Below, piece after piece: positions 34,646-45,505 of a stretch of DNA of 62,203 bases. The notes under the pieces are model-generated. The model worked only from the letters and a program-made list of their open reading frames with translations, was not told the DNA's origin and ran no database searches. The stretch lies in the NCBI GenBank assembly GCA_003133685.1, contig PKYQ01000023.1:92195-154397 (forward strand), in the 5' to 3' direction. Numbering within the stretch: position 1 is the first letter of the stretch; each line of letters starts with the position of its first letter. Made by a program: the position numbers and the translations under genes. The stretch is from Acidimicrobiaceae bacterium (GTDB lineage: Bacteria > Actinomycetota > Acidimicrobiia > Acidimicrobiales > RAAP-2).

Positions 34646-34760
34646 CCGTAAGAGAATACGGGTTGAGCCGGGGGTCCGAACTTGACAGGGGCTGAACCGT
34701 CGGCGAGAATTGAAGGGTCATCAAGAGCGACTGAGGGACGGCCCCGTTGAAGTCGCGACA

Positions 34761-34800
34761 ACCAGTGTGATACTCGAGCAACCCGCTCATCACACCAGGT
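34761..34800 (+). promoter_or_regulatory. Structured hairpin in the thrC leader
   Basis: GTGTGAT (34765-34771) pairs with ATCACAC (34789-34795), and inside it GAGC (34776-34779) pairs with GCTC (34785-34788) around loop AACCC, leaving a 4-nt bulge on the 5' side. Outer ACC/GGT pairs may extend it. No U-run follows, so it is not a simple terminator. It ends 29 nt before the thrC ATG. Confidence 0.4.
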
Positions 34801-34829
34801 GCCAAAGGCCGAACGATGAAAAGGGAGTT

Positions 34830-36382: not shown

Positions 36383-38050
<1,668 letters not shown>

Positions 38051-38159: not shown

Positions 38160-38843
38160 ATGACTCCAGAACCGCTCGCGCCTTCTCGCGGGCTCAATGT
38201 GTTGCATCTGTTCTGCCACCCCGGCGCCGACGTGGACGCCGGCGCGCTGCGAAAGGCCGTCGATGACGCGCGCGCCAACGCACTACAGGTCGTGAGTGTC
38301 GCGATCATGGGCGCCAAGGCCGACGTGTGTTTCATGATCCTCGGCGAAGACCTCTGGACGTTGCGCCAACTTCAATCGAAGATCCAGGCGGCCGGATTCT
38401 TCGTGGCCGAGAGTTACGTCTCGGTCACTGAAGTGAGCGAGTACGCCGCTGGTATGCCCGAGAAGATGTTGCAGGACCGTCTCTTTCCGACGTTGCCGCC
38501 GGAGGGGAAACGAGCCTTCTGCTTCTACCCGATGTCCAAGCGACGCGACGAGTCCAACAATTGGTACGCCCTCGCCTACGACGAGCGCGAACGCCTCATG
38601 CGTCAACACGGCGCACTCGGCCGAGAGTTCAAGGGCCGCATCCTCCAGGTCATCACCGGTTCGACGGGCCTCGACGACTGGGAGTGGGGCGTCACGCTCT
38701 TCGGCGTGCACGTCGATGACCTAAAAGAGTGCGTCTACACGATGCGCTACGACGAGGCCTCGACGCTGTACGCCGAGTTCGGTGCGTTCTACACGGGACT
38801 CGTGGGCACGCTCGACGAAGTCCTCGACGCCACGTTGGCCTAG
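38160..38843 (+). CDS. chdC: Coproheme decarboxylase (chlorite dismutase-like family)
   Basis: This 227-residue protein of the ChdC/HemQ family oxidatively decarboxylates coproheme III to heme b in the coproporphyrin-dependent heme pathway of Gram-positives. Visible motifs are FCFYPMSKRR, NWYALAYDERERLMRQHG (with the Tyr thought to be catalytic) and WEWGVTLFGVHVDDLK. It lacks the distal Arg pattern of true chlorite dismutases. It starts at ATG 38160, 52 nt after the groL terminator, with the NUDIX gene 23 nt downstream. Confidence 0.9.
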   Translation: MTPEPLAPSRGLNVLHLFCHPGADVDAGALRKAVDDARANALQVVSVAIMGAKADVCFMILGEDLWTLRQLQSKIQAAGFFVAESYVSVTEVSEYAAGMPEKMLQDRLFPTLPPEGKRAFCFYPMSKRRDESNNWYALAYDERERLMRQHGALGREFKGRILQVITGSTGLDDWEWGVTLFGVHVDDLKECVYTMRYDEASTLYAEFGAFYTGLVGTLDEVLDATLA

Positions 38844-38866
38844 GACGCGTTGCTAGCGTCGTCAAC

Positions 38867-39553
38867 GTGGAACCCATTCCCGAAAAAACCCTCTTGCGCT
38901 GGGCCGAATCGTTGGCCGGCGTCGCGCGAACGGGCCTGGGTTTCACCGAGAGCCAGTATGAACGCGAACGTTTCGAAGAGGTCCTGAAGATCGCCGGCGA
39001 CATCAAGTCGGCGGCCGAATCGGGCTTAGACGGCGTGCTCGACGCCGACGGGTACGTCGCCGAATGGATGAAGGAAGTTGGATCGGGCGTCGCGGGATAC
39101 CAGACGCCGAAGGTCGCGGTCGGAGCGGCGGTGACGAATGACCGCGGCGAGTTGCTCCTGATTCAGCGCGCCGACTCCGGGGTCTGGTTGTACCCGACGG
39201 GCTGGTGCGACGTCGGCTACTCCGCCCCCGAAGTGGTCGTGAAAGAGGTGTTGGAAGAAACCGGCATCGAAGTTGAACCGGTGCGACTTATCGGCGTCCT
39301 CGACGGCATGCGTCTCGGCTCGTCACGTATTCCGCTGTACTCATTGCTATTCTTCTGTCGCGCCGTCGGAGGAGAGATCAAGATTCACCCACTCGAATGC
39401 CTCGACGCCGGTTGGTTCACTCGGGACAACTTGCCGTCGCCCATCATCGGCGCCGAACGCTGGGCCGGACCGATTTTTGCGGCCATTGACGGCGAACACC
39501 GCGACGTCTTCTACGACGACCTTCGTCGACCGGTATGGAGAGGGGACCAATGA
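38867..39553 (+). CDS. NUDIX hydrolase with N-terminal NUDIX_N_2-like domain
   Basis: This 228-residue protein has an N-terminal helical domain (KTLLRWAESLAGVARTGLGF) of the kind found before NUDIX domains that act on nucleoside diphosphates linked to other groups. A NUDIX box follows around GYSAPEVVVKEVLEETGIEV, with Lys in place of the usual Arg in REVxEE. The substrate is unknown; ADP-ribose or nucleotide sugars are possible. GTG 38867 is the first good start, and its end overlaps the GNAT gene by 4 nt. Confidence 0.82.
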   Translation: MEPIPEKTLLRWAESLAGVARTGLGFTESQYERERFEEVLKIAGDIKSAAESGLDGVLDADGYVAEWMKEVGSGVAGYQTPKVAVGAAVTNDRGELLLIQRADSGVWLYPTGWCDVGYSAPEVVVKEVLEETGIEVEPVRLIGVLDGMRLGSSRIPLYSLLFFCRAVGGEIKIHPLECLDAGWFTRDNLPSPIIGAERWAGPIFAAIDGEHRDVFYDDLRRPVWRGDQ

Positions 39554-39990
39554 GCGTGCACGTCGAGATCGCAGATGAGGCAACCCAAGAGCTGCTCGAA
39601 GGCCTGAACGAACTCCTACCTCAACTCTCAACGAACGCCGCACCTCTGACGACCGCCGACGTCGAGGCCCTTGTCGCGTCGCCGGTCACGGTCCTTTTCG
39701 TCGCCCGCGACGAAGGGCGAATTGTCGGTTCGCTGACGCTTGTCGTCTTTGCTATTCCCACCGGACTGCGAGCCTGGATCGAAGATGTCGTAGTTGACGG
39801 ATCTGCGCGGGGAGCCGGTGTTGGAGAAGCGTTGACCAACGCGGCAATAGAAGAGTCACGGCGCCGTCACGTGCGATCGATTGACCTCACGACGAGGCCC
39901 TCGCGCGAGGCGGCCAATCGACTGTACGCGCGACTTGGGTTCGAGCTTCGCGAAACAAATATCTATAGACTTTCCATAGAAAGTGACTAG
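39550..39990 (+). CDS. GNAT-family N-acetyltransferase
   Basis: This 146-residue single-domain GNAT has the acetyl-CoA motif A region IEDVVVDGSARGAGVGEALTN (Gx1-2GxG/A type) and the motif B AANRLYARLGFELRETNIY. The substrate cannot be inferred. ATG 39550 overlaps the NUDIX stop (ATGA), so the two are probably co-expressed. It marks the left edge of the accessory region. Confidence 0.85.
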   Translation: MSVHVEIADEATQELLEGLNELLPQLSTNAAPLTTADVEALVASPVTVLFVARDEGRIVGSLTLVVFAIPTGLRAWIEDVVVDGSARGAGVGEALTNAAIEESRRRHVRSIDLTTRPSREAANRLYARLGFELRETNIYRLSIESD

Positions 39991-40033: not shown

Positions 40034-40699
40034 ATGGCACGACTAGCCCTCTTCGACCTTGATAACACTTTGCTCGATCGGGAACGGGCGTTCGAGAGAT
40101 GGGCTTCAATTTTCATCGAGTTGCACGGACTCCCCGAGGGTTCGTGGTCAATCATCGAGTTGATGGACGAGGACGGTTTGCGACCAAGGAGCGAGTTCTT
40201 CGAAGGTCTGCGTGAAGCGTTGTCGATCGACATCGGCGTCGAGGATCTTCTTGCTGATTACCACGACCAATACCCAAGGTGTTTCTCCGTCGACCGCGAG
40301 ACGGTTGACGCCGTGCGGAGGCTGCGGGACAACGGGTGGAAGGTGGGCGTGGTGACGAACGGACCGCCGTCACAAATGTCGAAGCTCGAAGCTACTGATC
40401 TTCTTGGCGAGTTCGACGGGATCTGCGTTTCGTCGATCGTGGGATCGCGAAAGCCCGAGCGGGGCATTTTCGAAGAGGCGGCGCGGGCCTGCGGGGTCGC
40501 GCTCGAAGGGTGGATGGTCGGAGACTCCCCGAGCGCGGATGTTGCGGGAGGGCGAGCCGCGGGGCTTGCAACGATTTGGATGTCGAGGGGCCGTGAATGG
40601 GATCATTCGCAACTCCCTCCTCCTGACTTTGCAGTTGCCACTATCGCCGAAGCAGTCAACGTAATCCTCGGTGCACCAGTTTCGAGCTATTCGCGATAG
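40034..40699 (+). CDS. HAD-superfamily hydrolase (subfamily IA)
   Basis: This 221-residue protein has LALFDLDNTLLDRERAF (motif I, DxDxT), VVTNGPPSQ (motif II), SRKPERGIFEEA (motif III Lys) and WMVGDSPSADVAGGRAAG (motif IV), a complete HAD-IA set with a helical cap between motifs I and II. Likely a phosphatase on a small metabolite; the substrate is not identifiable. ATG 40034 is chosen, as the frame is open slightly upstream without a better start. Confidence 0.88.
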   Translation: MARLALFDLDNTLLDRERAFERWASIFIELHGLPEGSWSIIELMDEDGLRPRSEFFEGLREALSIDIGVEDLLADYHDQYPRCFSVDRETVDAVRRLRDNGWKVGVVTNGPPSQMSKLEATDLLGEFDGICVSSIVGSRKPERGIFEEAARACGVALEGWMVGDSPSADVAGGRAAGLATIWMSRGREWDHSQLPPPDFAVATIAEAVNVILGAPVSSYSR

Positions 40700-40703
40700 G
40701 ACC

Positions 40704-41006
40704 ATGGACGAATCTGCGGGGCGTCCTGAGAGTGGTGTAGAAATTGTTGGGCGAACAAAGTGTCGTTCCGAAAAGGTGTCGATGACGCGCTGCTTGCAGC
40801 GATGGTGGAAAGTGCCGCGACTTACTCGACTACTCATCTTGCTGGTCATTATCGCCTGGGTGAGCTTGACGGATAACTACTTGGGTCATCGTCATCACTC
40901 TGATCAAGACCTGATCCTCCTTTGCCAATCGGCATTCTTCATTCCTTATTGCTTTAACGCTCTACGCCGAAGAAATCCCCAAGAGAGCCTTTCGGAAAAT
41001 CTCTAG
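40704..41006 (+). CDS. Small hypothetical protein with one transmembrane segment
   Basis: This possible 100-residue product has a Cys/Arg-rich N-terminal half, a hydrophobic stretch LLILLVIIAWVSL, a short His-rich loop (HRHHSD) and a second weakly hydrophobic stretch. I do not recognise a family. It follows the HAD gene by 4 nt, which supports it being real, but codon bias is weaker than in neighbours. Confidence 0.35.
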   Translation: MDESAGRPESGVEIVGRTKCRSEKVSMTRCLQRWWKVPRLTRLLILLVIIAWVSLTDNYLGHRHHSDQDLILLCQSAFFIPYCFNALRRRNPQESLSENL

Positions 41007-41047
41007 AGAGATGAATCGTCGAAGTCGGTTCATACACGTGATACATA

Positions 41048-41094
41048 TTTAGCGAAACGCGGTAGACCAACGTCTACCGTTTCAATCTCTGAGA
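41048..41094 (+). repeat. Two-hairpin intergenic repeat, copy A
   Basis: The core is CGGTAGAC (41060-41067), spacer CAAC, and GTCTACCG (41072-41079), a perfect 8-bp inverted repeat. A second small hairpin (ATCTC/GAGAT) follows. It is preceded by a TTT-AxCGAAACG left flank shared with the other copies and lies 59 nt upstream of the maleylpyruvate isomerase-like gene. Confidence 0.75.
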
Positions 41095-41137
41095 TCAGCC
41101 GAGGTGTGGTCTTCCAGAACCCCACTAACTTAAGTTC

Positions 41138-41815
41138 ATGGACTACGCCAGAGCGATTGTCGAAAGTAGCGCAAGAATTGCGGCGCTTGCCGAGCGGGCA
41201 GACCTAGGAATTCCGATTCCGTCGTGTCCTGACTGGACGGCCGGTGACTTAGTTTTCCATCTTGGAACCGTGCATCGCTTTTGGACTGCCGCTGTGAGGG
41301 AACGCAATCCTGAGGCGCGTCCGAACGTTGACGACGGCGACGTCGATGACGCCGATCTGGTGTTGTGGGCGCGTGAGCAGACCGCCGCATTAGTGGGTGC
41401 TCTTGCTGTCGCCGACGGGGCGCCATGTTGGACTTGGTGGGGCGAACCACGAACCGCCGATGCTGTTGCTCGTCACCAAGTCCAAGAAGCGGCAGTTCAC
41501 TGTTGGGATATCTGCAATGCCCTAGGTCAGGACTTCGAGATTCCTATCGATCAAGCGGTGGACGGCATCGCTGAATTCCTCGAAGTCATGTCATCTTCGA
41601 TGGAGATGCCGTCAGACCACCACCTTTCTTTTCAGCCGAGCGATTGGGCTGACGTGGTTACTTATGGTGACCTCTCACTGCCACCAATAACGCTCAGTGG
41701 TTCAGCCTCGGACATCGTGCTCGTAATCTACAAGCGTCGGCCCCTAGAAATTCTGAGGGTGGACGGTGACGTTACGATCGCACAGCGATGGCTCGACGCC
41801 ATTGATTTGTCGTGA
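41138..41815 (+). CDS. Maleylpyruvate isomerase family (mycothiol-dependent, DinB-like) protein
   Basis: This 225-residue protein has an N-terminal four-helix DinB-like MDMPI_N domain (SCPDWTAGDLVFHLGTVHRFW, with CPDW and the first His as metal-site features; HQVQEAAVHCWD with further His) and a C-terminal MDMPI_C domain (SGSASDIVLVIYKRR). Family members act on mycothiol-linked substrates or detoxify electrophiles; the true substrate is unknown. It shares domain architecture with the product at 48130-48876. It is flanked by repeat copies A and B. Confidence 0.8.
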   Translation: MDYARAIVESSARIAALAERADLGIPIPSCPDWTAGDLVFHLGTVHRFWTAAVRERNPEARPNVDDGDVDDADLVLWAREQTAALVGALAVADGAPCWTWWGEPRTADAVARHQVQEAAVHCWDICNALGQDFEIPIDQAVDGIAEFLEVMSSSMEMPSDHHLSFQPSDWADVVTYGDLSLPPITLSGSASDIVLVIYKRRPLEILRVDGDVTIAQRWLDAIDLS

Positions 41816-41882
41816 AGTGATGTTCTAGCGTGTCTTGGTGCCGCCAGGCCTGGTTTGCATTGCAAGTAGACGGACGCTTTTA

Positions 41883-41940
41883 TTTCTACCAAAACGCGGT
41901 AGACCAATGTGTACCGCCTGAGTCTCTGAGAGACTCAAAA
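41883..41940 (+). repeat. Two-hairpin intergenic repeat, copy B
   Basis: This is the clearest copy. CGGTAGAC (41897-41904), CAAT and GTGTACCG (41909-41916) form the first hairpin with one mismatch, and TGAGTCTC (41919-41926) with GAGACTCA (41930-41937) form a perfect second one. The left flank is TTTCTACCAAAACG. It lies 22 nt upstream of the VOC gene. Confidence 0.8.
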
Positions 41941-41961
41941 TGTCTCGGGTAGCGTTTGTCC

Positions 41962-42396
41962 GTGTCTCTAATAGTCCGAGCTGTCATGTTCTTCGCAGAA
42001 GAACCTAGGGCAGTCGCACTGTGGTGGGCAGAATTGCTCGATTGTCCTGTGGAGAGAGTTCATATCGAAAGCGAGTTCGTCTGGTTTGACGTCGGCGAGA
42101 TTGAATTTGGATTTCACCCCCTTGATGAAGCGAAAAACCCAGTTGGCGGCAGTCCAGTTTTCTACCTGCGTGTCGAAAATTTTCCGGCGGCAGTTGCCCG
42201 CGCTGAGTCGAAAGGTGCGCGCCTGCATCGGGGACCACGCGCAGTACATGATTGCCGCTCAATCGCTCAGTTGACAGATCCGTTTGGAAATGTCTTCGGA
42301 CTTGATGGCCACCTCGATAGACGTTCCCGATTGGATCAAGGTGATCAGGCATCGCCCGCTCTCCAGGCGAATTTGAAAAGGGAGTTAGCGGAGTGA
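41962..42396 (+). CDS. VOC (glyoxalase/bleomycin resistance) family protein
   Basis: This roughly 144-residue protein has the paired beta-alpha-beta-beta-beta modules of VOC proteins (AVMFFAEEPRAVALWWAELL; YLRVENFPAAVARAESKGAR; TDPFGNVFGLDGH). A metal-dependent enzyme or a small-molecule-binding resistance protein is possible. Start GTG 41962 keeps the first strand; ATG 41986 would remove it. It lies directly behind repeat copy B. Confidence 0.78.
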   Translation: MSLIVRAVMFFAEEPRAVALWWAELLDCPVERVHIESEFVWFDVGEIEFGFHPLDEAKNPVGGSPVFYLRVENFPAAVARAESKGARLHRGPRAVHDCRSIAQLTDPFGNVFGLDGHLDRRSRLDQGDQASPALQANLKRELAE

Positions 42397-42480
42397 TGAC
42401 AGACACTCCCAGCAAAAGGGACTGAGAATTTCGTGCAATTGTTGTCAAGAAAACGGCGACACTGCGACCTTTGCGTAGGC

Positions 42481-42678
42481 GTGAAGGTGAGAGGCATGCT
42501 GAAGCTGATTAAGGATGATGGGTGGGTGCAAGTTCGTCAGACCGGGAGTCATCGTCAGTTTCAACATCCGACGAAGAGTGGAGGTGTCACTGTTTCGGGG
42601 CATCCAAGTAGAGATTTACCACCTGGAATTGTGAATAGCATTATGAAACAGGCAGGACTTCGTCGGAGGAAAGAGTGA
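42481..42678 (+). CDS. hicA: HicA-family mRNA interferase toxin
   Basis: This 65-residue protein has the classic HicA pattern MKVRGMLKLIKDDGWVQVRQ, then TGSHRQFQHP with the catalytic His (about His24), then VTVSGHPSRDLPPGIVNSIM. HicA is a double-stranded-RNA-binding-fold ribonuclease that cleaves mRNA and is neutralised by HicB. GTG 42481 matches the family N-terminus; the frame continues upstream without similarity. It overlaps hicB by 4 nt. Confidence 0.92.
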   Translation: MKVRGMLKLIKDDGWVQVRQTGSHRQFQHPTKSGGVTVSGHPSRDLPPGIVNSIMKQAGLRRRKE

Positions 42679-42890
42679 CCGAATACACGATCATTATTGA
42701 GGATGCCGGCTCAAACTACGCGGCGTACGCTCCCGATGTTCCAGGTTGCATTGCCGCAGCTGAGACGGTCGAGGAAACTCGCAAGCTTATGGAAGAGGCG
42801 CTTGTTCTCCACCTTGAGATGTTGCGGGAGATGGGCGAACCGATCCCTCAACCGCATATCCAAGCAGTTGTAGTCCAAATCGCTTCGTAG
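42675..42890 (+). CDS. hicB: HicB-family antitoxin
   Basis: This 71-residue partner of HicA has the partial RNase-H-like fold (TEYTIIIEDAGSNYAAYAPDVPGCIAAAETVEE). It is a short form without a C-terminal DNA-binding domain, so autoregulation would need another factor. GTG 42675 overlaps the hicA stop by 4 nt. The pair sits between repeat copies B and C. Confidence 0.9.
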   Translation: MTEYTIIIEDAGSNYAAYAPDVPGCIAAAETVEETRKLMEEALVLHLEMLREMGEPIPQPHIQAVVVQIAS

Positions 42891-42899
42891 CGACATTCG

Positions 42900-42950
42900 T
42901 TTCTACCAAAAGACGGTAGACAAACGTGTACCGACTCTTCCCGGAGAGTG
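42900..42950 (+). repeat. Two-hairpin intergenic repeat, copy C
   Basis: CGGTAGAC (42914-42921), spacer AAAC and GTGTACCG (42926-42933) form hairpin 1, and ACTCT (42934-42938) with AGAGT (42945-42949) form hairpin 2. The left flank TTTCTACCAAAAG matches copy B. It begins 10 nt after hicB. Confidence 0.78.
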
Positions 42951-43083
42951 GCGACGAGAGGCCCACGGCATCGAGTCCGCGGGGGAAGAAGGCGATTCGT
43001 GCGTGCGCTCGCCACCGGCGAACGCAGGTTTCGAAAGTGACCCACGACTCTTTCGGGGTCTAAGGGATGGGTAGCCTGAGCCC

Positions 43084-43515
43084 GTGAGACGAATGGCGGT
43101 CGCCGGGATCGTTACCGTTGCCTACGCCTGGTGGGCTACGGGAGTATCGCCCTTCACCGCCGCGTCGTACGTCCTCAGCGCTGTGCCCTTGGCGATCGCG
43201 ATCGCGGCGTACGCGAGCGCGGGCTACTTCACTCTGCGTCGCGGGGATGTCGTCGCGTACTTTCGTTATCGAGCTCTTGGCGTGACCCGGCGCAGCACTA
43301 CGGCGTGGCTCGTGGTCGCGGCGGCGGTCGTGTCCCTTGAGTCCGTCGGCTTGGCCCTCGGCGGGCGCTCGGATCGCGTGCCCACTCTGAGTGCCGTCGT
43401 CGACCACCTGCTCGTCACGCACATCGGACGCTGTGCGCTCTTCTGCGCGTGGGTCGCCGTCGGGGGGTGGCCGCTCATCCGCCTACGCCGCTGGCGGGGC
43501 AACGGAATGGTCTGA
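43084..43515 (+). CDS. Actinobacterial membrane protein of unknown function
   Basis: This 143-residue protein has about four hydrophobic segments and a basic C-terminus (LIRLRRWRGNGMV). I do not recognise a characterised family. GC content and codon use match the core genome rather than the neighbouring accessory genes. It is followed after 1 nt by a second small membrane protein, and such pairs occur widely in actinobacteria. Confidence 0.6.
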   Translation: MRRMAVAGIVTVAYAWWATGVSPFTAASYVLSAVPLAIAIAAYASAGYFTLRRGDVVAYFRYRALGVTRRSTTAWLVVAAAVVSLESVGLALGGRSDRVPTLSAVVDHLLVTHIGRCALFCAWVAVGGWPLIRLRRWRGNGMV

Positions 43516-43516
43516 C

Positions 43517-43723
43517 GTGAACGGAACCTTGGTGTGGCTCGCTCTTCTCGGCGTGAGCATTCTGGTCGAGTTGCGAGCGCGCCTCGGTGCGGGGCGCACG
43601 CCCACACTCGGGCGCGTGGGCGCCGCGATAGCCACGTCACTCGGCGGTCGAATCCTGCTGCTACTGCTGTGGATGTTCGTCGGGCTGCACCTGTTCTCGC
43701 GCTACACGCTCCCGGGACACTAG
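43517..43723 (+). CDS. Small membrane protein (DUF6186-like)
   Basis: This 68-residue protein has two hydrophobic segments (LVWLALLGVSILVEL; GGRILLLLLWMFVGLHLF) separated by a basic loop with PTLGRVGAAI. It resembles a small actinobacterial membrane protein family that I believe is DUF6186. GTG 43517 comes 1 nt after the preceding stop, so the two form a pair. Function unknown. Confidence 0.6.
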   Translation: MNGTLVWLALLGVSILVELRARLGAGRTPTLGRVGAAIATSLGGRILLLLLWMFVGLHLFSRYTLPGH

Positions 43724-43902
43724 GACGCTCGCCGTCGGGGCGTGGCCGCGCCACGACTGGTAGAGGGGGAGTCGGTGCCCTTTCCCCGCATTATGGGCGG
43801 TAAGGATTGAGTGGAGGTGAGAACGCACCACAGCATGATGAGTGAGAATTCAGTCCCAACCGCCGGCGCCATTGGCGTGGGTATCGATGTTGCAATCGTC
43901 GT

Positions 43903-43955
43903 TTTCTATGAAAAAAGGGCATACACACGTCTACCGGCTGAGCTTGTAGAGGGAC
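43903..43955 (+). repeat. Two-hairpin intergenic repeat, copy D (diverged)
   Basis: The left flank TTTCTATGAAAAA and the right arm GTCTACCG (43929-43936) match the other copies, and the left arm is degenerate (GGGCATAC, 43917-43924). CTGAG follows as in copy B. It lies 27 nt upstream of the GNAT gene. Confidence 0.65.
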
Positions 43956-43982: not shown

Positions 43983-44396
43983 GTGGAAGTTCTCGAGTTA
44001 ACTGGTGACGACGTTGAATCTGCGGCTGCTCTCTGGGCCGATACCGGATTGACTCGGCCGTGGAATAATCCTGTCGAAGATTTTCGCCGAGCGGTCGAGG
44101 GACCGACGTCGGCCGTGTTGGGCATCAAGAAAGACGGTGAGCTGATCGGGACCGTGATGGCTGGAAGCGATGGCCATCGAGGTTGGGTTTACTACCTAAC
44201 GGTGAGCACGGCGCATCAGCGCGTTGGTCTCGGATCAGAACTCATGAGGGCCGCCGAAGAGTGGCTACGTGAAAAGGGTGCCGTAAAGGTCCAACTGATG
44301 GTTCGGAGCGAGAACGAACCGGCGATGATCTTCTATGAACGTGTTGGCTACGAACCCAGTGATGTCAACGTTCTCTCACGGTGGCTCTCGGGTTAA
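43983..44396 (+). CDS. GNAT-family N-acetyltransferase (YpeA-like)
   Basis: This 137-residue GNAT has an acetyl-CoA loop (VSTAHQRVGLGSELMRAAEEWL) and a C-terminal NEPAMIFYERVGYEPSDVNVLSRWL, closely resembling YpeA-type acetyltransferases. The substrate is unknown. GTG 43983 lies just after repeat copy D, and the stop is followed by the questin-oxidase-like gene. Confidence 0.85.
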   Translation: MEVLELTGDDVESAAALWADTGLTRPWNNPVEDFRRAVEGPTSAVLGIKKDGELIGTVMAGSDGHRGWVYYLTVSTAHQRVGLGSELMRAAEEWLREKGAVKVQLMVRSENEPAMIFYERVGYEPSDVNVLSRWLSG

Positions 44397-44461
44397 ATCT
44401 GAGTCAATCGCTAGGTGCGAGAGACGGTCAAGTAATCGGCCGAGCGAGTGACATACCTTCG

Positions 44462-45505
44462 ATGCTCCCCGATAGCGTCCTCGTTGTGGGTCAAATTGTT
44501 AGCCAAGTATTGCAGGAGTTACTTGACGAAGAGCTTGGAGCCGATCCCACCACAGTGCGCGGCCTCACTAATCATCTCCCTATGGCCCTTGTGGCGAAGG
44601 AAGGTCTCGGCGCCGACGCCGATGAGCTCACTCGCTTCGCCGCCGCGTACTCCACTCGCATCACTGCGCTCGACGAGTCTTCGACGCGCCTCGACGAACA
44701 CACGTGGCGCTCGGCGATTGGCAACTACGGCGCCGCCGCCGATCTCAGGAGTTACTTCGCTCGACGGGTTGCCGAGGAAGGAACCGACGAAACCTTAAAG
44801 AAACACTTGCCCGCATTCATTGCGGGCATTAGTGGGGCCGCCTTTCACGGTGTCATCAGGCTTGCGTACGCAATCGAGGTTTCGTCACCTTCTCGCGTCG
44901 CGGCCGGCTTGGCGTACCTCGCAGAAGTTGGGAGTCCCCTGAGACCGTTGGTGCCGGGAGCGGTCGGGGCGCAGGATCCAATGACGATTCTGGCCGACTT
45001 GTCAAAGTCGCCGGATTTGCCAACTCCACCAAGATTGAGAATCATCGAGGAAGAGATGCGCGTTGTTGCGAACAGTGACCTCTTTGACGCAGCGGTGGCT
45101 TCGCTCGAAGTCACGGAGGATACCGATCAGAAGTTGGCCCAAGCGGCGCTGCACCTCTATGCGTCAACCGACGATTTCACGGCGCTTCATGGAGTGACTG
45201 GTTTGGAGGCGATCAACTCACTACGTCCCTGGTTTGATGACAATGAACTCCTGAGCCGATTCGCCTTTCAGGCGCTCGTTGCGGCGTACCTGTCAATTGG
45301 TGCTCCGGCACTGTGGTCACGGGACCAACTCGACGAGTTTGTCGGTACAAATGAAAGGGACCCGAGAGAAGTATCGTCGAGTGCCGCGTTCAGCACGGAT
45401 GAGCATGTCTCGAAGTTGGTTTACACCGCGCGGCGTTCATGGGAAAAAACCAACGACCCTCTCTACCTTGCGGTTGCGGCGAGGAAGGCATTTCCGAATT
45501 CTTAG
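44462..45505 (+). CDS. Questin oxidase-like family protein
   Basis: This roughly 347-residue protein has LTNHLPMALVAKEGLGADADELTRFAAAYSTRI, the entry motif of the questin oxidase-like family, then HGVIRLAYAIE and YASTDDFTALHGVTGLEAI, with conserved His residues at the usual places. Fungal members carry out Baeyer-Villiger-type ring opening of anthraquinones; bacterial members are uncharacterised. ATG 44462 is chosen; the frame is open to 44381, overlapping the GNAT gene. Confidence 0.7.
   Translation: MLPDSVLVVGQIVSQVLQELLDEELGADPTTVRGLTNHLPMALVAKEGLGADADELTRFAAAYSTRITALDESSTRLDEHTWRSAIGNYGAAADLRSYFARRVAEEGTDETLKKHLPAFIAGISGAAFHGVIRLAYAIEVSSPSRVAAGLAYLAEVGSPLRPLVPGAVGAQDPMTILADLSKSPDLPTPPRLRIIEEEMRVVANSDLFDAAVASLEVTEDTDQKLAQAALHLYASTDDFTALHGVTGLEAINSLRPWFDDNELLSRFAFQALVAAYLSIGAPALWSRDQLDEFVGTNERDPREVSSSAAFSTDEHVSKLVYTARRSWEKTNDPLYLAVAARKAFPNS

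Follow-up and report, generated by a model that had tools for sequence, protein, structure and literature searches.

Repeats behind a GNAT acetyltransferase gene of an Acidimicrobiaceae bacterium as putative attachment sites of a large serine recombinase integration system

We analyzed a stretch of 62,203 nucleotides (nt) from an Acidimicrobiaceae bacterium (assembly GCA_003133685.1, contig PKYQ01000023.1, positions 92,195 to 154,397), hereafter the window, in which four repeats, sites A to D, separate small gene cassettes. The array lies directly behind groEL, a hemQ-like gene, a NUDIX gene, and a GNAT acetyltransferase gene, and the same order precedes arrays in many relatives (Table 1). According to our analysis, the repeats are probably attachment (att) sites of a large serine recombinase (LSR) integration system which targets the 3' end of the GNAT gene in this groEL-hemQ-NUDIX-GNAT locus, a reading to which we give a probability of roughly three in four. 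An earlier note on this DNA had described the repeats and proposed several explanations for them; its description stands in part, as does its interpretation. We know of no described family with this site sequence, and Rfam gave no match at the repeats at the gathering threshold.

Table 1. Features of the GNAT locus and its array in the window (ORF, open reading frame)
Feature	Position	Strand	Remarks
groEL	36428-38050		upstream of the GNAT anchor
hemQ-like gene	38160-38843		upstream of the GNAT anchor
NUDIX gene	38843-39553		upstream of the GNAT anchor
GNAT acetyltransferase gene, array anchor	39535-39990	+	Pfam; same order in relatives
Half site in GNAT 3' end (attL-like)	39933-39984	-	19 bits; gene ends ..ETNIYRLSIESD, then stop
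Cassette 1	40034-41006	+	HAD hydrolase 40034-40699, unassigned ORF 40671-41006; relatives in other arrays
Site A	41046-41093	+	left half 41046-41067, centre CAAC 41068-41071, right half from 41072 (VYRFNL, then stop)
Cassette 2	41138-41815	+	mycothiol maleylpyruvate isomerase-like gene; Pfam
Site B	41883-41930	+	centre CAAT 41905-41908, right half from 41909 (VYRLSL, then stop)
Cassette 3	41956-42890	+	VOC 41956-42396, hicA 42433-42678, hicB 42675-42890; Pfam
Site C	42900-42947	+	centre AAAC 42922-42925, right half from 42926, frame open beyond 25 codons
Cassette 4	43084-43723	+	ORFs 43084-43515 (no Pfam match) and 43519-43723
Site D (worn)	43903-43950	+	centre ACAC 43925-43928, right half from 43929 (VYRLSL, then stop); variable stretch ends
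Right flank common to sisters	43983-45505	+	second GNAT 43983-44396, questin-oxidase-like 44381-45505

Anatomy of the sites and their anchor gene

As the earlier note had it, the four copies run in one direction, and the hicAB pair lies between copies B and C. Their starts are 837, 1,017, and 1,003 nt apart, and copy C starts 10 nt 3' of the hicB stop codon. The left flank taken to be shared, TTTCTACCAAAACG, is exact in B only, with two base differences in C and more divergence in A and D, and the core inverted repeat is perfect in A only. A full element is an imperfect palindrome about 48 bp long. In gene direction, it consists of a left half YTTCTAYCAAMMnnCGGTAGAC just 3' of the upstream gene, a centre RAAY, and a right half starting with GTSTAYCG (consensus GTSTAYCGnTTTTTCmTAGAAA). 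Of the window's copies, only D is worn; the other three are typical. Read in the direction of the anchor gene, 71 of 75 distinct array sites have AA as the middle two bases. The opposite strand scores higher for 13 of these sites, as a palindrome predicts, yet 12 of them retain AA in the anchor direction. Within one hicAB subfamily, variation sets in at the centre, behind a left half that hardly changes, so that the right half belongs to the next cassette.

The counts given here come from two sets of loci. The first 40 loci were picked because of site matches and the second 40 by position from 88 NUDIX places, a NUDIX protein being encoded in 88 of the 99 same-genus genomes; this second set favors long contigs and includes some genomes already known to carry sites. 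L099, on the same contig as L155, was excluded, and duplicates among the right halves and among the hicB flanks entered the counts a single time. In the second set, a site lies beyond the GNAT gene in 15 of 40 loci and hicB in 14 of 40. Over all 62 anchored loci, the corresponding numbers are 36 and 31, shares which are inflated because part of the loci had been selected for sites. The thresholds for calling a site (25/33 in one scoring, 24/33 in another) were set on the same data, with 0 matches in the reversed and shuffled controls.

The earlier note missed a half site located inside the 3' end of the anchor GNAT gene, whose T-N-V-Y-R codons form the site centre. In 62 of 62 anchored loci, the GNAT protein ends in TNVYR or a near variant followed by 3 to 14 residues, with 55 different tails. 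Array sites lie outside the GNAT gene; nonetheless, their right halves encode a GNAT-type tail in the matching frame. Read in the GNAT frame, 46 of 75 right halves reach a stop at codon 5 to 12, versus 23 and 18 when the other frames are read and 6 in a same-frame control taken 150 nt downstream. In the window, the stretch behind the core of A, B, and D reads in frame as the C-terminal end of a GNAT protein; the frame of C remains open. Such tail coding is what integration into the 3' end of a gene leaves behind. It also accounts for the second hairpin of the earlier note, since it is the right halves coding for the GNAT tail that were read as a hairpin kept by compensatory change. Across 61 sites, the 34 nt 3' of the core are no more stable when folded than their dinucleotide shuffles (mean z of -0.05), five sites having z < -1.5, among them B (-1.7) and D (-2.5), and a hairpin model built on 32 copies displays no covariation above that of shuffles.

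These results bear on two further suggestions of the earlier note, a mobile palindrome and a shared regulatory element. The sites are indeed intergenic and palindromic, as expected for a dispersed palindrome resembling REP or MITE sequences or for a terminator or regulatory element common to the genes. However, an origin of this kind leaves the breaks at the site centre, the GNAT-frame tails, the fixed anchor gene, and the adjacent recombinase unexplained, and there is neither covariation nor added stability behind the core; we regard it as very improbable and as unneeded to explain the data. The idea of a HicB operator was set aside, given that the site lies 3' of hicB and that this HicB is short (71 aa).

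Junctions and variable content among relatives

The suggestion of the earlier note that fared best is that the repeats are recombination sites of a cassette system. Sister genomes carry different genes between the same chromosomal flanks. From the GNAT gene to the end of the questin gene, the window spans 5.5 kb, and G023, G028, and G030 span 8.4, 2.9, and 4.8 kb, respectively. The window has in common with these three sisters only hicAB relatives, a VOC gene (53% identical, in G023), and the right flank, of which the second GNAT gene was not found in G028. Gene order is therefore not fixed among relatives; the earlier note had named a fixed order as an argument against a mobile or cassette role. 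ORFs were picked by length in this comparison, which misses some true genes, such as the VOC gene of the window.

Sequences part company at or next to the site centre. G028 and G030, whose first cassette is common to both (95 to 97%), align with 94.5% identity along 1,891 nt ending in ..GGACCAATGTCTA, after which their cassettes differ. One VOC cassette, starting with AACGTTTACAGGTTCAATCTC, follows the GNAT gene in G062, and in G043 it is preceded by a hicAB left half. In G422, two contigs have 149 bp of GNAT in common and diverge after ..GACACAAATGT, one continuing into a GNAT tail and an array, the other into an LSR gene. Window DNA from 43929, the first base to the right of the centre of D, matches the DNA directly behind the GNAT gene of G048 (71.3%), and in G030 a comparable match begins at 43923. 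Site D thus looks as if it carried an older GNAT tail, and G048 looks like an empty site on the right-flank side. Taken together, these observations make site-specific accretion at the GNAT gene very probable.

The hicAB genes are a frequent cargo. Wherever hicB was scored, it lies on the GNAT strand, that is, in the direction of the array (50 of 50 cases). A site is found within 110 nt of the hicB 3' end in 47 of 75 flanks, versus none of 75 stretches taken from within hicB and none of 1,500 shuffled flanks. Other cargo includes MazF/PemK-like, HepT-like, GNAT, VOC, HAD, DinB, methyltransferase, and winged-helix genes. Site-to-site distances (n = 57) have a median of 1,001 nt. The stretch between C and D with its two ORFs (42882-43786) is 92.9% identical over 905 nt to locus L172 of G004, whose NUDIX protein is 84% identical to that of the window, and was not found in the three sisters examined, which are the nearest relatives.

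Recombinases at the site and likeness to known systems

In three genomes, an LSR gene starts beside such a site. In G019, the gene of a 548-aa LSR starts 15 nt behind the GNAT gene, at the head of an element some 8 kb long. A site lies at the other end of this element, which also encodes FtsK/SpoIIIE (E 1.9e-14) and RepSA (E 9.6e-50) proteins. This element thereby unites the gene set of an actinomycete integrative and conjugative element (AICE), namely, integrase, replication initiator, and transfer protein; the set occurs in the G019 element only, not in the window cassettes. The LSR matches the Resolvase domain PF00239 (73.8 bits) and the Recombinase domain PF07508 (44.6 bits) over their cut-offs and the zinc ribbon PF13408 under its cut-off (20.6 versus 25.3 bits). 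In G422, a 36% identical LSR starts behind the GNAT end. In G032, an N-terminal LSR piece, 83% identical over 48 residues, starts beside a site not situated behind GNAT: on contig C17 (L198), the left neighbour of the LSR-flanked site is not the GNAT gene, and this site is perhaps a secondary target. Two further relatives, a C-terminal piece in G032 and a 26% identical protein in G075, could not be placed. The best NCBIfam match of the LSR is CcrB, with 62.9 bits for G019 and 46.4 bits for G422 against a curated cut-off of 900. Weak LSR matches were found in 31 plasmid records, each below 60% identity, and none in the PDB by sequence at E <= 0.001. In the G019 and G422 elements, the halves assigned to the element are near-palindromic (19/25 and 21/24), whereas the GNAT side is not (10/25 and 9/24), the G422 halves being taken from two contigs. 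Furthermore, the left half of the LSR element nearly equals left halves of hicAB cassettes.

We therefore propose the following course of events. A circular element with a palindromic att site, made of left half, RAAY centre, and right half, would recombine with the T-N-V-Y-R codons of the GNAT gene. The incoming right half would supply a new end for the GNAT frame, and the old right half would shift downstream, where it would sit behind the left half of the element. Repeated events of this kind would build up an array of small cassettes in direct orientation, frequently with hicAB at their end. The LSR family found beside the sites is the likely catalyst of the exchange. A match to PF00239 is absent in 15 of 21 array genomes, that of the window included; most arrays would thus depend on visiting elements, and the array of the window, in whose genome no serine recombinase was found, is probably resident. 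It is also conceivable, at somewhat less than even odds, that the small cassettes are mobile in their own right, moving in trans as circles, with hicAB aiding their persistence.

Several findings weigh against this reading. Besides the missing PF00239 matches, LSR relatives are rare: at E <= 1e-10, just 3 of the 99 genus genomes encode one, which in one case is no more than 26% identical, and the LSR query retrieved G422 alone among 397 genomes of the order at E <= 1e-15. The fork in G422 may mix strains, its two halves coming from different contigs, and the genomes are mostly draft metagenome assemblies. No site accompanies 28 of the 75 hicB flanks, and no cassette circle was seen. Finally, the similarity of the C-D cassette to G004 breaks off at 43786, some 115 nt before D, an edge which the sites leave unexplained.

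The rarity of recombinases in arrays would be expected if whole AICE-like LSR elements had integrated serially at the GNAT 3' end and then lost genes, the small units being immobile remnants. The element of G019, between GNAT and site, is of just this type, most arrays are without a recombinase, and tandem AICEs are known from the available text of a survey (PMC3218068). Such decay hardly accounts for compact hicAB units with like left halves which recur beside different right neighbours, for the 14 of 57 site distances of at most 650 nt, or for the 905-nt cassette held in common with G004 and not found in the nearest relatives, and we consider it unlikely, if the strongest of the alternatives.

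Another candidate for the exchange is a tyrosine recombinase, either XerC/XerD or an unseen integrase, with the LSR element merely using the same gene end. Proteins matching PF00589 occur in 20 of 20 array genomes searched; two of these genomes (88% and 73% complete) have just two matches, presumably XerC and XerD, and an integrase is encoded near a second site cluster of the window's own genome. Yet, in 18 of the 20 genomes no such gene lies on the array contig, many of these contigs being short, and in the other two it is at least 50 kb away. Five queries from the own genome detected no tyrosine integrase in the array stretches fetched from 82 sources except near that second cluster, where the integrase adjoins a tRNA-Ala gene. 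A tRNA gene is the usual target of tyrosine integrases. Since the near-identity of the left half of the LSR element with those of hicAB cassettes also points to the LSR, we deem a tyrosine recombinase quite improbable.

In its mode of action, an LSR system acting at the GNAT gene comes closest to the staphylococcal and enterococcal cassette chromosomes (SCC and ECC), which according to the available text of PMC6222049 use the large serine recombinases CcrAB or CcrC at the 3' end of rlmH. As described there, the common features are an LSR beside the target (here in G019 and G422 and as a fragment in G032, with none found in the genome of the window), the 3' end of a conserved gene as target, direct repeats of about 50 bp, multiple att sites, and variable cargo (PMC6222049). 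In ECC, inverted repeats are present in attR and in the joined site and not in attL (PMC6222049), a distribution matched by the near-palindromic element halves and the non-palindromic GNAT side reported above. The target gene is kept open, as in SCC, with all 62 anchors ending in frame. In contrast to SCC and ECC, the target is a GNAT gene, the cargo comprises hicAB, the cassettes are mostly of about 0.4 to 2 kb and recombinase-less in the loci examined, and the LSR falls far short of the CcrB cut-off. The array is thus not an SCC, as its enzyme is non-Ccr and its target is not rlmH. The likeness to AICEs is confined to the G019 element with its LSR, FtsK/SpoIIIE protein, and RepSA; in the available text of the AICE survey, 19 of 144 elements use serine recombinases and tandem pairs are on record (PMC3218068), whereas the small cassettes here carry no such replication, transfer, or recombinase genes.

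Integrons are the textbook case of tandem capture of small gene cassettes, by means of a tyrosine recombinase. Tandem, directly oriented small cassettes behind a single anchor site, with toxin-antitoxin and acetyltransferase genes as cargo, recall the integrons described in the available text of PMC8618304, and one could thus suppose a true integron array whose integrase was lost. This is hardly credible. The attC boxes have the form RYYYAAC..GTTRRRY: RYYYAAC is present in 2 of 76 sites and GTTRRRY in 4 of 76, and both in attC order in 0 of 76, a weak test given that shuffles also yield 0. IntI (TIGR02249) was found in 0 of 99 genomes at E <= 1e-30, in a search without a positive control in which the control genomes were also without a match. 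Moreover, the anchor site overlaps codons of a host gene, and the nearest recombinase is a serine enzyme. We therefore do not file the array as an integron. In its working it resembles an SCC-type locus whose small cassettes recall those of integrons.

On a tentative view, to which we give slightly less than an even chance, the arrays may represent an integron-like system built on a serine recombinase: free cassettes as small as about 0.5 kb, recombinase-less and often closed by hicAB, would circulate in Acidimicrobiales and be captured in trans at the GNAT 3' end, each restoring the gene with a new C-terminus, so that the tail of the host protein would record the latest capture. If the arrays are filled by a serine recombinase, tandem capture of small cassettes arose from machinery other than that of integrons. 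The arrays offer a defined site and a candidate enzyme, a natural att/LSR pair that is new, a means of finding cassette arrays not targeted by attC-based searches, and a case of toxin-antitoxin genes as common cassette cargo outside integrons. A search of open-licence literature, covering titles and the starts of abstracts, retrieved no account of such arrays.

Distribution of the site and further copies

The short core pattern alone is unspecific: with up to 3 mismatches, 16 occurrences were found against a shuffle mean of 8.4, and in the own genome, with up to 2 mismatches, 12 and 10 on the two strands against 18 and 21 in the reversed control. The extended pattern, which includes the left flank, occurs in 32 of 99 same-genus genomes and its reversal in 0 of 99; likewise, a weight matrix gave 0 matches of at least 14 bits on the reversed sequence of 22 sources, the window included. 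A model built from 32 copies detects the element or the GNAT half site in 52 of the 99 genomes at E <= 0.05 per genome, a level at which, with strict filters, about 5 of 99 genomes are expected by chance. Among 397 genomes of the order, 6 match at E <= 0.01, namely, four of the genus, the own genome included, and G292 and G422 from other families. G292 keeps the anchor order with larger gaps. The contig of G422 begins inside the GNAT gene, and its site match is weak (E 0.004), with a fitting context; the sole LSR match in the order sample is thus one of the two other-family genomes with sites.

An exact pattern scan of named genomes returned 20 contigs, labelled Acidimicrobiaceae or Acidimicrobiales (10), Actinomycetota or Actinomycetes (7), and Acidobacteria (3). 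The last label is probably wrong, as these three contigs appear to belong to genomes placed in the genus. A viral origin was considered and rejected, with 0 matches of the site pattern in viral_contigs and one weak relative of the LSR (25%) there.

The own genome contains additional copies, two and a weaker third on contig C13 and one on contig C22. Those on C13 (L016:5000-9500) form the second site cluster, with two hicAB pairs, beside the tRNA-Ala gene and the gene of the tyrosine integrase (381 aa). One site of the cluster adjoins an SRPBCC-like gene, as it does in G006 (L101), and the two genomes seem to have this second insertion place in common. The site on C22 (L140:9486-9537) stands alone, and no hicAB or anchor gene was found nearby. 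In G080, a hicAB stretch of 544 bp is present on two contigs (L089 and L090) with 93.6% identity. Apart from the array, the window harbors a SAM riboswitch (34715-34822) at the start of the longest frame of a gene which we take, from reading its translation, to be threonine synthase-like.

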